Notes under the pieces: model-generated | The model's database searches: none | What the model saw: the letters and a program-made list of their open reading frames with translations, nothing else | Told to the model about the DNA's origin: nothing | NCBI RefSeq assembly: GCF_003426735.1 | Contig: NZ_QVON01000001.1 | Location: forward strand, 1 to 64,000 | Reading direction: 5' to 3' | Origin: Arenibacter sp. P308M17 | GTDB taxonomy: Bacteria > Bacteroidota > Bacteroidia > Flavobacteriales > Flavobacteriaceae | DNA: 64,000 bases | Program-made: the position numbers and the translations under genes | Part shown: positions 8,585-64,000 of the stretch, piece after piece | Position numbering within the stretch: the first letter of the stretch is position 1 | How the letters are laid out: the number at the start of each line of letters is the position of its first letter

Positions 8585-8599
8585 AATTGTAGTTAGGTT

Positions 8600-8709
8600 G
8601 TTATCCAGTTATCTTGTAAACGAGTTTCATTTTGATTTCTTCTTAACTAAGTAACTTCATCACTTCATCACTTCGTAACTGAGTTATGCGGTTATCGAGT
8701 TATCCAGTT
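8600..8709. repeat. Head-to-head octamer tandem array (site A)
   Basis: Between rfbB and rfbA the sequence runs in exact 8-bp register: gtaacttc, atcacttc, atcacttc, gtaactga, gttatgcg, gttatcga, gttatcca from 8651 to 8706. Two more units (gttatcca, gttatctt) lie at 8600-8615. The orientation flips at the perfect dyad TAACTGAGTTA (8676-8686), so left units are near reverse complements of right units. The segment 8616-8709 is homologous to site B at 12708-12800. No gene is present between the arms. Confidence 0.8.
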
Positions 8710-8740
8710 CAATTTTTCTTTACTGTGAAACCCAATCGCA

Positions 8741-12707: not shown

Positions 12708-12860
12708 TGTTAACGAGTTTCATTTTGTTTTCTTCATAACTAGTAACTCCATCAGTTCGTAACTGAGTTATGTTGTTATCTAGTTATGCTGTTATCGAGT
12801 TTTCTTTTGTTTTCTTCATCAATATGTAACTCCATCACTTCGCTACCAAGTAGCTCACTT
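12708..12860. repeat. Head-to-head octamer tandem array (site B)
   Basis: The gap between the GH3 and DUF6909-like genes contains octamers in exact register from 12743: gtaactcc, atcagttc, gtaactga, gttatgtt, gttatcta, gttatgct, gttatcga. The orientation flips at TAACTGAGTTA (12760-12770). A second partial run (gtaactcc, atcacttc, gctaccaa, gtagctca) follows at 12826-12857. The leader (acgagtttcattttg) and the array are homologous to site A. Apart from the possible terminator, the rest of the 12536-12890 gap shows nothing that I can assign. Confidence 0.8.
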
Positions 12861-37864: not shown

Positions 37865-38725
37865 ATGGCCAATTTAAAAGAAATACGTAATAGGATTGCT
37901 TCGGTATCTTCAACGATGCAGATTACCAGTGCCATGAAAATGGTATCTGCTGCCAAGTTGAAGAAGGCCCAGGATGCCATTACCGCAATGCGCCCATATT
38001 CCGATAAATTATCGGAACTTTTGCAAAACCTTAGTGCTAGTTTGGATGCGGATTCCGGGAGCAAGTTTGCCGATAATCGTCCAGTGAAAAAGGTTTTGAT
38101 CGTGGCCATAACCTCTAACCGGGGTTTATGCGGTGCATTTAACACGAATATCCTAAAGCAAAGTGCGCTGCTGGCAAGGGAGACCTATGCGGACAAACAG
38201 GTAGATTTTGTTGCCATTGGAAAGAAGGCCAACGATATTTTAAAGAAAAAGAACAAGGTTATCGCCAACCACAGTTCAGTTTATGACGACCTAACGTTCG
38301 ATAATGTGGCGGTCATTGCCGAGGAGTTGATGGATCTGTTTACCACAGGGGCATATGACAAGATCGAAATTGTTTATAACAAATTCAAGAATGCGGCCAC
38401 ACAAATCGTTATGACAGAGCAATTCTTGCCCATAGTTCCTGTAGAGGGGGAGGCCAATTTGGCAGCTGATTATATTTTTGAGCCCTCTAAGGCGGGGATT
38501 GTAGAACAATTGATTCCAAAATCATTAAAGACCCAGTTGTATAAAGGAGTGCGCGATTCGTTTGCCAGTGAACATGGGGCACGTATGACCGCTATGCACA
38601 AGGCAACGGACAATGCGACCGATTTAAGAAATCAGTTGAAACTTACCTATAACAAAGCAAGACAAGCTGCCATCACCGGCGAGATTTTAGAAATTGTTGG
38701 TGGTGCCGAAGCACTGAACAATTAG
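37865..38725 (+). CDS. atpG: ATP synthase F1 subunit gamma
   Basis: From the ATG at 37865 the protein has 286 residues. It starts MANLKEIRNRIASVSSTMQI and ends with the conserved NKARQAAITGEILEIVGGAEA. Gamma is the rotating central stalk. An upstream in-frame GTG (37856) is less likely because the family begins with MANLK. The last codons and the stop lie in the first copy of a 54-bp tandem repeat. The atp operon ends here without atpD or atpC. Confidence 0.95.
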   Translation: MANLKEIRNRIASVSSTMQITSAMKMVSAAKLKKAQDAITAMRPYSDKLSELLQNLSASLDADSGSKFADNRPVKKVLIVAITSNRGLCGAFNTNILKQSALLARETYADKQVDFVAIGKKANDILKKKNKVIANHSSVYDDLTFDNVAVIAEELMDLFTTGAYDKIEIVYNKFKNAATQIVMTEQFLPIVPVEGEANLAADYIFEPSKAGIVEQLIPKSLKTQLYKGVRDSFASEHGARMTAMHKATDNATDLRNQLKLTYNKARQAAITGEILEIVGGAEALNN

Positions 38726-38863
38726 GCGGAGCGGTAGCGGAGCCAAATTTTCCCAGCAACTGAAGCACTGAACAATTAGGCGGAGCGGTAGCGGAGCCAA
38801 ATTTTCCCAGCAACTGAAGCACTGAACAATTAGGCGGAGCGGTAGCGGAGCCAAATTTTCCTG
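38708..38863. repeat. 54-bp tandem repeat starting in the atpG 3' end
   Basis: Three copies begin at 38708, 38762 and 38816 with a period of exactly 54 bp. The first begins in the atpG codons EALNN-stop, so each later copy contains a duplicate of the atpG end with its stop codon. Copies one and two are identical apart from the start. The third diverges after about 46 bases. A further fragment (agcactgaacaatt) lies at 38921-38934. The core ggcggagcggtagcggagcc is much richer in GC than its surroundings. Confidence 0.85.
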
Positions 38864-60098: not shown

Positions 60099-60800
60099 AT
60101 GATACGAAAAACAGTGGCCAACGTGGAGGAGGCATTAGAGGGGGTAAAGGATGGTATGACACTAATGCTTGGAGGATTTGGATTATGCGGTATTCCTGAA
60201 AATGCGATTGCGGCATTGGTGAAGAAAGGGGTCAAGGATTTGACCTGTATTTCCAATAATGCCGGAGTGGACAATTTTGGTCTTGGCCTATTGTTGCACA
60301 AAAGACAGATAAAGAAAATGATCTCTTCCTATGTGGGGGAAAATGATGAATTTGAACGGCAAATGTTGAGCGGCGAATTGGAGGTGGAGTTAACCCCACA
60401 AGGAACTTTGGCCGAGAAATGTAGGGCCGCACAGGCCGGTTTCCCCGCCTTTTATACTCCAGCCGGATATGGTACCGAAGTGGCCGAAGGCAAAGAGACA
60501 AGGGAGTTCAATGGTAAGATGTATGTGCTGGAAGAGGCTTATAAGGCCGATTATTCCTTTGTAAAGGCCTGGAAAGGCGATGAGGCCGGGAATTTAATAT
60601 TCAAGGGCACCGCCCGTAATTTTAATCCGGCCATGTGCGGCGCTGCCAGGATAACCGTGGCAGAAGTAGAGGAACTGGTGCCTGCGGGTACCTTGGATCC
60701 CAATCAGATCCATGTTCCTGGTATTTTTGTACAACGCATCTTTCAAGGTAAAAACTATGAGAAAAGAATTGAGCAGTTAACGGTACAGAAGGTCAATTGA
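60099..60800 (+). CDS. scoA: 3-oxoacid CoA-transferase subunit A
   Basis: The 233-residue protein begins [21 protein letters not shown] and has [16 protein letters not shown] and [14 protein letters not shown], the family I CoA-transferase alpha signature. With subunit B it moves CoA from succinyl-CoA to acetoacetate or a related oxoacid. The partner gene scoB is normally adjacent, but here it is 617 bases away behind an array-flanked gene. Confidence 0.94.
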
Positions 60801-60810
60801 TTAATTGTTT

Positions 60811-60882
60811 AATGTAACAATGTATCAATGTATCAATGTAACAATGTAACAATGTAACAATGTAACAATGTAACAATGTAAC
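60811..60882. repeat. Left octamer array (site C), nine units
   Basis: Nine consecutive 8-bp units run from 60811: aatgtaac, aatgtatc, aatgtatc and then six aatgtaac. The stretch 60818-60840 (23 bases) is perfectly complementary to the right array at 61347-61402. The other units differ from full complementarity at one position each. The array starts 10 bases after the scoA stop. Confidence 0.95.
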
Positions 60883-60962
60883 AATTTCTTGTTTTAATAC
60901 TTTGATATTGATTGGAATCAGGATAAATAAAGGGTAGACAAATTTAGTACAAACAAAACACG

Positions 60963-61313
60963 ATGATAAAGAAAAATGCTGTCGTTGAAAAATCCATCGA
61001 ATTTGCCATTAGGATTGTTGAATTTTGTGAAGTATTGGAGGAGCGAAGAAAATATGTTGTTGCAACACAGTTGTTAAAGGCAGGTACAAGTATTGGGGCA
61101 AATATTCATGAAGCTCAAAACGCTGAAAGTAAGGCCGACTTCATCCATAAAATGAAAATTGCGGTTAAGGAGCTTGAGGAAGCCAAATATTGGCTGGTGA
61201 TCTGCGAACGGTCAAAATCGTATCCTTATGAAATTCATTTAAAGGAAAGCATTGATGAATTAGGGTTAATTTTATATAAAATTATTAGTACCGCTAAGAG
61301 GCATTCAAGATAG
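60963..61313 (+). CDS. Four-helix-bundle protein (23S rRNA intervening-sequence type)
   Basis: The 116-residue protein contains VATQLLKAGTSIGANIHEAQ, KADFIHKMKIAVKELEEAKYW and a C-terminal ILYKIISTAKRH. These are the conserved blocks of the S23/IVP four-helix-bundle family (TIGR02436-like). Relatives are encoded inside intervening sequences of 23S rRNA genes, and a related fold (Avd) serves in diversity-generating retroelements. Nothing of that second kind is nearby: there is no reverse transcriptase and no template repeat. The gene sits between scoA and scoB, flanked by inverted octamer arrays, and the AAA-rich start has no clear ribosome binding site. Function unknown. Confidence 0.88.
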   Translation: MIKKNAVVEKSIEFAIRIVEFCEVLEERRKYVVATQLLKAGTSIGANIHEAQNAESKADFIHKMKIAVKELEEAKYWLVICERSKSYPYEIHLKESIDELGLILYKIISTAKRHSR

Positions 61314-61346
61314 AAATCTCGGAACAATGAATTAATAAATTATTTA

Positions 61347-61410
61347 ATTGATACATTGATACATTGATACATTGATACATTGATACATTGATACATTGAT
61401 ACATTATAAC
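61347..61410. repeat. Right octamer array (site C), seven units plus one variant
   Basis: Seven perfect attgatac units (61347-61402) are followed by a variant attataac (61403-61410). The unit is the reverse complement of the aatgtatc units of the left array. The array ends 7 bases before the scoB ATG at 61418. Confidence 0.95.
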
Positions 61411-61417
61411 ATTAATT

Positions 61418-62071
61418 ATGTTGGATAAAAACGGAATAGCAAAGCGTATTGCAAAGGAAGTCAAGGACGGATATTATGTGAACCTGGGAATAGGGATACC
61501 AACTTTGGTGGCCAATTTTGTACGGGACGATATCAGTGTGGAATTTCAAAGTGAAAACGGGGTATTGGGAATGGGCCCCTTCCCTTTTGAAGGGGAAGAG
61601 GATGCCGATATCATCAATGCAGGCAAACAGACTATAACCACACTCCCGGGAGCCTCGTTTTTCGACTCTGTAACCAGCTTTGGGATGATTCGGGGGCAAC
61701 ATGTAGACCTGACCATTTTGGGTGCCATGGAGGTGGCTGAAAACGGGGATATTGCCAATTGGAAAATTCCGGGCAAAATGGTAAAGGGAATGGGCGGGGC
61801 CATGGACCTGGTGGCTTCTGCCGAGAACATCATTGTGGCCATGATGCATACCAATAGGGCCGGCGAATCCAAATTGTTGAAACAGTGCACATTGCCATTG
61901 ACGGGAGTGGGCTGTGTAAAAAAGATTGTGACCAATTTGGCGGTACTTGATGTAACTCCAGAAGGGTTTAAATTGCTGGAAAGGGCTCCTGGTGTCAGCG
62001 TTGATGATATAGTGATTGCTACGGAGGGTAATTTAATCGTTGAGGGCGACATCCCTGAGATGGATATTTAG
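61418..62071 (+). CDS. scoB: 3-oxoacid CoA-transferase subunit B
   Basis: The 217-residue protein has IAKEVKDGYYVNLGIGIPTLV and the catalytic Glu in FQSENGVLGMGP near residue 50, typical of the beta subunit. It pairs with scoA. The start lies directly behind the right octamer array, so its translation signal includes array sequence. That could affect the balance between the two subunits. Confidence 0.94.
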   Translation: MLDKNGIAKRIAKEVKDGYYVNLGIGIPTLVANFVRDDISVEFQSENGVLGMGPFPFEGEEDADIINAGKQTITTLPGASFFDSVTSFGMIRGQHVDLTILGAMEVAENGDIANWKIPGKMVKGMGGAMDLVASAENIIVAMMHTNRAGESKLLKQCTLPLTGVGCVKKIVTNLAVLDVTPEGFKLLERAPGVSVDDIVIATEGNLIVEGDIPEMDI

Positions 62072-63387: not shown

Positions 63388-63684
63388 ATGCGAATAGTTA
63401 CCTATAAAAGAATAATGGAGTTTTCAAAAAAGTATGCAGATGCCGAAAACCCTTTAAACTTTTGGTATTATACCGTAACATCTAAAGAATGGAAAGACCT
63501 GAACGAAATAAAACAAACCTTTAATTCTGTGGATTACGTTGGTAATAACCGCTATGTATTCAACATTAAAGGGAACGATTACAGACTGGTAGCTATTATT
63601 TCATTCAATGCCAAAAAAGTTTACATTCGATTTATAGGAACACATTCGGAATATGACAAGATTAAGGACATTAAAAACATTTAG
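63388..63684 (+). CDS. higB: HigB-type toxin (mRNA interferase)
   Basis: The 98-residue protein has NPLNFWYYTVTSKEWKDLNE, DYVGNNRYVFNIKGNDYRL and KKVYIRFIGTHSEYDKI, the pattern of the HigB_toxin family (PF09907, RelE fold). It is predicted to cut mRNA at the ribosome. The toxin gene precedes the antitoxin gene by 2 bp, the order typical for higBA. Confidence 0.9.
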   Translation: MRIVTYKRIMEFSKKYADAENPLNFWYYTVTSKEWKDLNEIKQTFNSVDYVGNNRYVFNIKGNDYRLVAIISFNAKKVYIRFIGTHSEYDKIKDIKNI

Positions 63685-63686
63685 TT

Positions 63687-64000
63687 ATGATACAAACGGA
63701 AAAGGAATATAATGCCATTGTAGCGCGTATTGAAGTGCTTTTATATGATACTAACAATATCGAGAATACCGAAGCAAAAGGTTATATTGAGTTAAACCTT
63801 TTATCCGATCTTGTAGCAGATTATGAGGAGCGCACCTATCCAGTTACAAAACCCTCATTGGTTGAGGTTATAAAAATGCGAATGGCTGAAATGGGATTGA
63901 ATCAAAAACGTTTATCCGAACTTTTGGGAGTAAGTACATCAAGAGTAAGTGAGTACCTCAACGGTAAAAGTGAACCCACTTTAAAAGTGGCAAGGGATAT
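63687..64000 (+). CDS. higA: HigA-type antitoxin, XRE-family HTH, cut by the window edge
   Basis: The frame from ATG 63687 is open to the window end (104 codons). After an N-terminal helical part (EYNAIVARIEVLLYDTNN) it has a Cro/C1-type HTH (MAEMGLNQKRLSELLGVSTS then RVSEYLNGKSEPTLK). It should bind the palindrome upstream of higB and neutralise the toxin. Only a few C-terminal residues are likely to be missing. Confidence 0.88.
   Translation, partial: MIQTEKEYNAIVARIEVLLYDTNNIENTEAKGYIELNLLSDLVADYEERTYPVTKPSLVEVIKMRMAEMGLNQKRLSELLGVSTSRVSEYLNGKSEPTLKVARD

Follow-up and report, generated by a model that had tools for sequence, protein, structure and literature searches.

An S23-family gene framed by inverted octamer arrays between scoA and scoB, and the recurrence of its architecture across phyla

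The described systems closest to the element reported here are the intervening sequences (IVS) of 23S rRNA genes. In Coxiella burnetii, tandem heptamers of GACAGAT lie beside the ORF of the IVS, and a Xanthomonas protein of the same family is described as a toroidal homopentamer (PMC4990558). PMC11270868 describes the same protein domain in candidate-phyla bacteria, within insertions that interrupt their 16S and 23S rRNA genes. A second point of comparison is RAYT, a single-copy gene with long vertical inheritance, for which dispersed gene-less repeats are commoner in genomes where the gene is present (PMC8049555). Heptamer arrays are a third. TAACTGA arrays are known from Beggiatoaceae, Cyanobacteria and Bacteroidetes (PMC4679880), and seven-base tandem arrays, mostly intergenic, include GGGAATC of Xanthomonas and GGGGA(C/T)T of Nostoc (PMC4692102, PMC4679880); X. 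campestris holds 70 inverted convergent heptamer pairs (PMC4692102). The passages on TAACTGA in PMC4679880 report no evident transfer mechanism and propose other binding proteins, and those on Xanthomonas in PMC4692102 describe its repeats as generally not associated with mobile elements. The terms 'S23' and 'helix bundle' are absent from the main text of both papers.

The element studied here lies in the window, by which we mean the whole 64-kb stretch of Arenibacter DNA that was analyzed. It separates two genes for 3-oxoacid CoA-transferase subunits, with the following features.

60099..60800, plus strand: scoA-type gene, 3-oxoacid CoA-transferase subunit A, the upstream host gene (TIGR02429, 270.1 bits; PF01144)
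60809..60890, plus strand: left arm, about nine octamers AATGTAAC/AATGTATC (TRF, arm alignment)
60963..61313, plus strand: four-helix-bundle gene of the 23S_rRNA_IVP / S23 family, 116 aa (PF05635, TIGR02436, predicted structure)
61334..61415, minus strand: right arm, about seven octamers ATTGATAC (the inverse of AATGTATC) plus degenerate edges (TRF, arm alignment)
61418..62071, plus strand: scoB-type gene, 3-oxoacid CoA-transferase subunit B, the downstream host gene (TIGR02428, 318.2 bits)

The insert measures 617 bp and consists of the left array, the 116-aa ORF and the inverted right array. Its left arm starts 8 nt from the scoA stop codon, and its right arm ends 2 nt from the scoB start codon. 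TRF resolved 9.4 copies of AATGTAAC with 97% matches in the left array (60811-60885) and perfect ATTGATAC repeats, 7.4 units by length, in the right array (61347-61405). NCBIfam assigned the flanking genes to ScoA- and ScoB-type subunits. Together with the arm alignment, these results confirm the claim of an earlier note, made from the sequence, that octamer arrays surround a gene splitting scoA from scoB. The note had also described the right units as reverse complements of the left ones, which is correct in part. The best alignment of the arms (60809-60890 against 61334-61415) has 71 of 82 positions identical and scores 109, whereas 100 pairs of dinucleotide-shuffled window flanks average 18.9 and reach at most 29. 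The longest stretch of exact inverted identity spans 23 nt (left 60818-60840, right 61376-61398). However, seven of nine left units terminate in AAC, while right units read inverted terminate in ATC. An A/A mismatch therefore recurs every 8 bp outside the 23-nt stretch, and the arms are incompletely complementary. The window unit is 8 bp, compared to 7 bp as the rule across the wider family (TRF; lag analysis). The window arrays are near-perfect and exceed those of relatives in length, and arrays in this lineage look recently lengthened.

The product of the internal gene matches PF05635 with 79.6 bits (cut-off 33.8) and TIGR02436 with 90.9 bits (cut-off 24), and its model shows four helices with a mean pLDDT of 92.1. 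Scores and model bear out the four-helix-bundle gene of the earlier note, and membership in the two families supports the kinship it proposed with proteins of 23S rRNA intervening sequences. The nearest solved structure is 2rld (E 1.9e-7), with 2gsc, through which a PF05635 structure has been available since 2006, also close; five chains are deposited in each. The fold search also returned Avd (4dwl_D, TM 0.74, rank 20, E 0.32) and matched DGR ribonucleoprotein entries. The protein matched no nuclease or transposase family, nor any tyrosine (Y1) transposase domain at E <= 0.001, so any mobility requires a further enzyme. The family protein is under purifying selection in the genus: across 97 non-independent genus pairs (intact, same-site, at least 70% identity), the median dN/dS is 0.084 and none is 1 or above.

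The same architecture recurs in the window's own genome, which holds six PF05635 genes, each between two co-directional genes. Five of these elements have inverted flanks scoring at least 24, the sixth (L001) scores 18, and the flank sequences of all six are different. The other five gaps, identified by reading translations without profiles, separate fadJ-like and thiolase genes, ffh and folD, kdpD- and kdpE-like genes, ruvC-like and hemW genes, and a mevalonate-pathway pair. Family matches number 2-8 per genome in 18 of 18 genus genomes, fragments counted separately, and the family is present in 90 of 118 genomes sampled across the phylum, Bacteroidota.

Inverted arms were scored in three sets of loci, with flanks of 1.5-2 kb at most loci and a threshold score of at least 24. 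The genus set held 84 of 85 fetched loci (L080, with no profile match, was left out). The phylum set of 110 loci combined the 30 best, one per genome, with 80 picked among the matches listed, and the named set took the top 80 among 570 confirmed relatives; neither set was drawn at random. Arms reached the threshold at 83 of 110 phylum, 67 of 80 named and 59 of 84 genus loci. When flanks were shifted 500 bp outwards, a control that omits loci too short to shift, 2/109, 2/63 and 0/83 did so. The prediction that family members elsewhere would carry inverted short arrays of other unit sequence was thus upheld, and the arrangement is far more general than the first reading held. The loci below the threshold numbered 25 in the genus set, 27 in the phylum set and 13 in the named set. 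Mispaired arms reached it in 86 of 1500 comparisons and arms in direct orientation at 21 of 110 phylum loci; in 57 of the 110, the locus's own right arm outscored all 40 sampled foreign arms.

Record titles place the named loci in Bacillota, Proteobacteria, Planctomycetota, Acidobacteria, Cyanobacteria, Chloroflexota, Bacteroidota, candidate-phyla groups and, for a single locus (L315), an archaeon; L315 has no inverted arms of this kind. A further set of 53 of 55 loci, weak family matches included (L349 and L365 had no profile match; ten loci overlap the named set), gave 41 above the arm threshold, with 18 of 27 for cyanobacterial genomes. Eight stretches of viral contigs fitted a pattern, and none of the eight was confirmed. 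The window element does not fit a classical insertion sequence or MITE, as its ORF holds only PF05635 and the arm sequence varies between elements. Recurrence across phyla hints at an overlooked class of genetic element. Arm size can be extreme: one Planctomycetota element (L264) has very long arms of some 35 heptads, far above most, and at L004 the right side is amplified (1855-2132), with about 6.5 copies of a 44-bp repeat containing array units.

Most elements run in the direction of both neighbors (83/110 phylum, 46/80 named and 81/84 genus loci), and 8/110 phylum and 7/80 named elements are antisense to both. A strict sense-orientation rule was rejected because of the eight antisense phylum loci, most of which have real neighbors by eye, including an ABC-exporter pair at three related loci and a potassium-ATPase pair at two; some minus-strand neighbors, such as those at L177 and L182, look spurious. 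At phylum and named loci with co-directional neighbors, the median distance from the upstream stop codon to the start of the left arm is 1 nt (n=105). From the end of the right arm to the nearest in-frame ATG it is 11.5 nt (n=102), a value biased downward by the choice of the nearest ATG.

The arrays share a common anatomy. Identity within phylum arms was 0.546 at lag 7 and about 0.24-0.31 at other lags except 14. The best lag was 7 or 14 in 62 and 8 in 13 of 80 non-redundant phylum arms, and 7 or 14 in 23 and 8 in 13 of 42 genus arms. Among arms above threshold, 125 of 163 left and 122 of 163 right arms had 4-6 units, with a peak at 4-5. Units vary between elements, yet both arms within one element match. 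Compared to mononucleotide shuffles, CAG (2.76x) and AGT (2.48x), as well as GAC, TCA and TAG, are enriched in the left-arm direction, and CTG and TGC are depleted. Unit-period conservation of AG was found in 95 of 165 left arms, compared to 9 of 165 for CT, and the units share a polar AG-centered core across elements. Regularity is equal in both arms (0.700 compared to 0.701, n=162). In a leave-one-out comparison, mismatches between arms fell at 94 of 973 invariant core positions and 206 of 712 variable ones, a difference that could partly reflect the shared history of the arms. A permutation test of positional conservation between aligned arms was dropped because of that shared history. Three-frame stop codons were rejected as the cause of the 7-/8-bp unit: their excess (78 of 165 left arms against 37.6 shuffled; right arms 41 against 17.5) is produced unaided by the period and a TAG-containing core.

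Likeness of arrays was then set against protein identity in 142 arms of 194 loci, with pairs that are non-independent. For pairs at different sites, similar arrays were found in about 1% below 45% identity, 3% at 45-55%, 10% at 55-65% (n=198) and 27% at 65-80% (n=22). Same-site pairs gave 2% at 25-35%, 3% at 35-45%, 16% at 45-55%, 19% at 55-65% and 73% at 65-80%; their 0-25% bin (26/102) holds pairs lacking a long enough alignment, including broken copies. The rise at unrelated sites indicates that arrays go with protein kinship, to which same-site descent adds.

Within the genus, family genes are mostly inherited vertically, at the same site. On a tree of 76 of the 84 rows, built from few columns and leaving 32 of its 71 inner forks open, 14 changes are required to account for 13 sites, two above the minimum of 12. 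The scoA-scoB elements group in a single supported clade, which splits deeply into two branches with differing arrays. These results indicate that site changes are few and that both arms change during descent. The hemW, ffh/folD and sufC/sufD gaps, read by eye, require two changes each, forced by well-supported branches, as by two arrivals or by an arrival and a departure. Broken family copies are also present in genus genomes.

The scoA-scoB gap was read in 30 loci, from 36 genomes with a scoB match. It is filled by a family gene in 18 of 18 genus genomes and in one other (L106), and L102 has an apparent decayed copy by eye. The remaining ten gaps, seven of 4-27 bp and three of 72-179 bp, are gene-less, so the check for empty gaps in relatives that the earlier note had suggested found them in other genera. 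As the gap is filled in all 18 genus genomes, the insertion is probably as old as the genus. By eye, no target-site duplication was recognized against the short scoA-scoB gaps of other genera. The earlier note's second proposal, a mobile cassette with the arrays as its ends, comes closer to these data than an RNA stem, but most genus copies are inherited at the same site.

Arrays also occur without the gene. When the 64-kb window was scanned for 7-8 bp periodicity above a threshold, the two scoA-scoB arrays and one more, at 8644-8680, were found, and two gene-less stretches were delimited.

8585..8710, no strand assigned: gene-less arrays of the GTTATCNN octamer and its inverse, in the gap between two genes (periodicity scan, gap comparison)
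12730..12806, no strand assigned: second gene-less stretch, of the GTTATCNN octamer type (TRF, pattern search)

Two other features of the window are a perfect 54-bp tandem repeat of 2.9 copies at 38708-38861 (TRF) and, at 63388-63998, a HigB-type toxin gene with an HTH-protein gene behind it that runs off the end of the window (profile search).

We read the 8585-8710 gap by eye in 14 of the 18 genus genomes. A short gap was seen in six, gene-less arrays in four (the window, L227, L231 and L234), and a full element with a family gene in the related genome G002 (L008/L228). In L230, L235 and L239 the gap is occupied by a different insert, with C-rich and G-rich repeats, that may represent a second class of gap-filling element. 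Further afield, the pattern AATGTAWC, with up to two mismatches, occurs in 8 of 18 genus genomes, the window's own included; its backwards control matched G000 and G014 only, six times each. At ten AATGTAWC-like places in five genus genomes, no family gene was found at E up to 1, and most are single arrays by eye. The GTTATCNN type occurs in 7 of 18 genus genomes, most often in G011, G014 and G002, with no match in the control, and the window's own genome holds additional arrays of both types. The two family genes of G011 carry arrays other than GTTATCNN. In that genome, where the GTTATCNN type is at its most abundant, 27 pattern matches were found, and contigs C27, C36, C50 and C83 carry clusters of GTTATCNN arrays.

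AATGTAWC arrays are present in 6 of 8 genomes with the window-type scoA-scoB occupant and in 2 of 10 others (p 0.03 one-sided, 0.05 two-sided), a comparison that ignores descent and in which the occupant type of two genomes was set by eye. Unit arrays of the second scoA-scoB occupant were found in 18 of 18 genus genomes (three mismatches; control, two matches). The reciprocal test is therefore uninformative or contrary, and the tie between dispersed arrays and the gene is weak.

Our favored explanation, held tentatively and at a little short of even confidence, is an arrangement like that of RAYT and REPIN, in which a four-helix ring protein would recognize heptad or octad arrays in DNA. We place it there because binding and movement are read from comparison and because dispersed arrays track the gene uncleanly; the 18 of 18 result for the second occupant's unit and the likeness of arrays in same-site pairs also weigh against it. 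The element consists of one gene for a small four-helix-bundle protein of the ring family and two inverted 7-/8-bp arrays, which would serve as its ends. The protein may bind array units as a ring on DNA at both ends, perhaps with one unit per subunit. Such binding would account for the equal conservation of the core in both arms and for the agreement of array type with protein relatedness. It may also be what allows an element to insert, on rare occasions, where the genome tolerates it and gene-less arrays to spread, in a relation like that of RAYT proteins to REP and REPIN sequences. A wider form of this proposal is possible but doubtful. It holds that these are cross-phylum minimal elements in which a pentameric ring reads co-evolving heptad DNA arrays. 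The elements would settle between the stop codon of one gene and the start codon of the next, or in frame within genes, and would seed gene-less arrays; the unexplained heptamer repeats seen in Cyanobacteria, Xanthomonas, Beggiatoaceae and Bacteroidota would derive from them, with the 23S rRNA IVS as a special niche.

The main alternative is that the arms pair in the operon transcript and RNase III cuts the stem, freeing or isolating the internal gene, as the earlier note had proposed. Predicted pairing is indeed strong, with a median arm duplex of -35 kcal/mol in the phylum set and the window arms likewise predicted to pair in a fold of the scoA-scoB gap. Co-direction with both neighbors at most loci also fits, and cleavage by RNase III keeps some credit because a family relative, the Coxiella IVS, has a terminal stem that is so cut in vitro (PMC4990558). 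RNA pairing, however, would tolerate G-U above A-C mismatches. We counted 76 G-U-type against 65 A-C-type mismatches in the phylum (80 arms; one-sided p 0.20), 33 against 41 in the genus (43 arms) and 90 against 117 in named and further loci (98 arms; two-sided p 0.07, opposite to the expectation), a total of 199 against 223. Sense and antisense duplex energies are equal on average (mean difference at most 0.01 kcal/mol; Wilcoxon p 0.64 and 0.54). The sense duplex is more stable in 45 compared to 35 and 27 compared to 16 loci, a slight lean that leaves room for a weak RNA role. The polar core, kept with equal regularity in both arms, and the antisense elements also argue against a stem. Mismatch type and duplex energies led us to reject RNA pairing as the conserved main property, and the view that an RNA stem maintains the likeness of the arms is not supported. 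The cleavage reading as a whole is rather unlikely.

Elements within genes bear on the same question. Ten rows (5/110 phylum, 5/80 named) lie within one long same-strand ORF, gene within gene, and represent nine loci (L119, L134, L142, L159, L194, L240, L252, L259 and L313), as L244 repeats L134; five more rows, two being repeats, were found among the 53 further loci. In all ten rows, the host frame stands in the same phase relative to the family gene. Other elements have this host-type frame open in 6 of 179 cases (6 of the 37 with G+C of at least 0.42), and none of them has the remaining frame open. The in-ORF frames are open by way of their finding, so the shared phase is partly expected. 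Six host ORFs were scanned: five have DNA-methylase domains above cut-off, and L259 has a weak match. The methylase ORF at L142, which also holds a family element, contains an in-frame DUF559 domain at residues 984-1088. At the five loci without neighboring ORFs (L119, L134, L142, L159 and L194), a search for rRNA gave no Rfam match, and all five lie within long ORFs. These elements look translated through rather than excised; host frames that stay open through them, in ORFs that were found because they are open, sit poorly with excision of their RNA.

Arrays could also be a by-product, growing by slippage and acquiring inverted copies by template switching or arm conversion, with the gene as passenger and the arrays unread. 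Near-perfect window arrays longer than those of relatives are what slippage predicts, units that are free to differ between lineages while the arms of one element stay alike are what conversion predicts, and similar gene-less arrays are common in the genus. This account is nevertheless improbable. It gives no reason why a single polar AG core should recur in many phyla, why arms vary so little in their number of units, why arrays at unrelated sites grow more alike as protein identity rises, or why such arms are lacking 500 bp outwards. Distinctly improbable is a TRAP-like regulator, whose ring would bind spaced AGU-type triplets of the left-arm transcript while the right arm competes by pairing, tuning expression of the gene itself or of the operon: it resembles TRAP in period, AG core and ring symmetry, its structural relative Avd (4dwl, DGR ribonucleoprotein entries) works with RNA and the arms hug the neighboring codons, but a reader of sense RNA should leave the right arm less regular, pairing would favor G-U, and antisense copies occur.

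We return to the proposal of a ring protein that reads arrays in DNA, which would give PF05635, common but without an assigned function, a testable substrate in the inverted heptad arrays, and would give bacterial heptamer repeats, whose spread is left unexplained in PMC4692102 and PMC4679880, a candidate partner protein. Under it, the ring protein of a lineage is expected to determine the short repeats found there, which would offer a clean system for the study of protein-repeat co-evolution. The likeness to RAYT and REPIN lies in a gene framed by inverted repeats, with related gene-less repeats elsewhere in the genome. REP sequences are palindromes. The repeats here differ from those of RAYT/REPIN in being short tandem arrays with a weak tie to the gene, and RAYTs are tyrosine transposases (PMC8049555), whereas PF05635 proteins match no such domain. 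With the 23S rRNA IVS of Coxiella burnetii and its S23p ORF, the elements share the protein family and complementary ends (PMC4990558). Unlike it, they sit in gaps between protein genes or in ORFs, the window one between scoA and scoB, and their arms are heptad or octad arrays whose mismatches do not look RNA-selected. Avd of diversity-generating retroelements has a similar fold (4dwl_D), and its kinship with the family is noted in PMC10053308. The published heptamer arrays (PMC4679880, PMC4692102) look like those of the family and may be linked to it, gene carriers having been examined in Cyanobacteria. TAACTGA (PMC4679880) reads TCAGTTA on the other strand and so contains the CAGT core of the family arrays.
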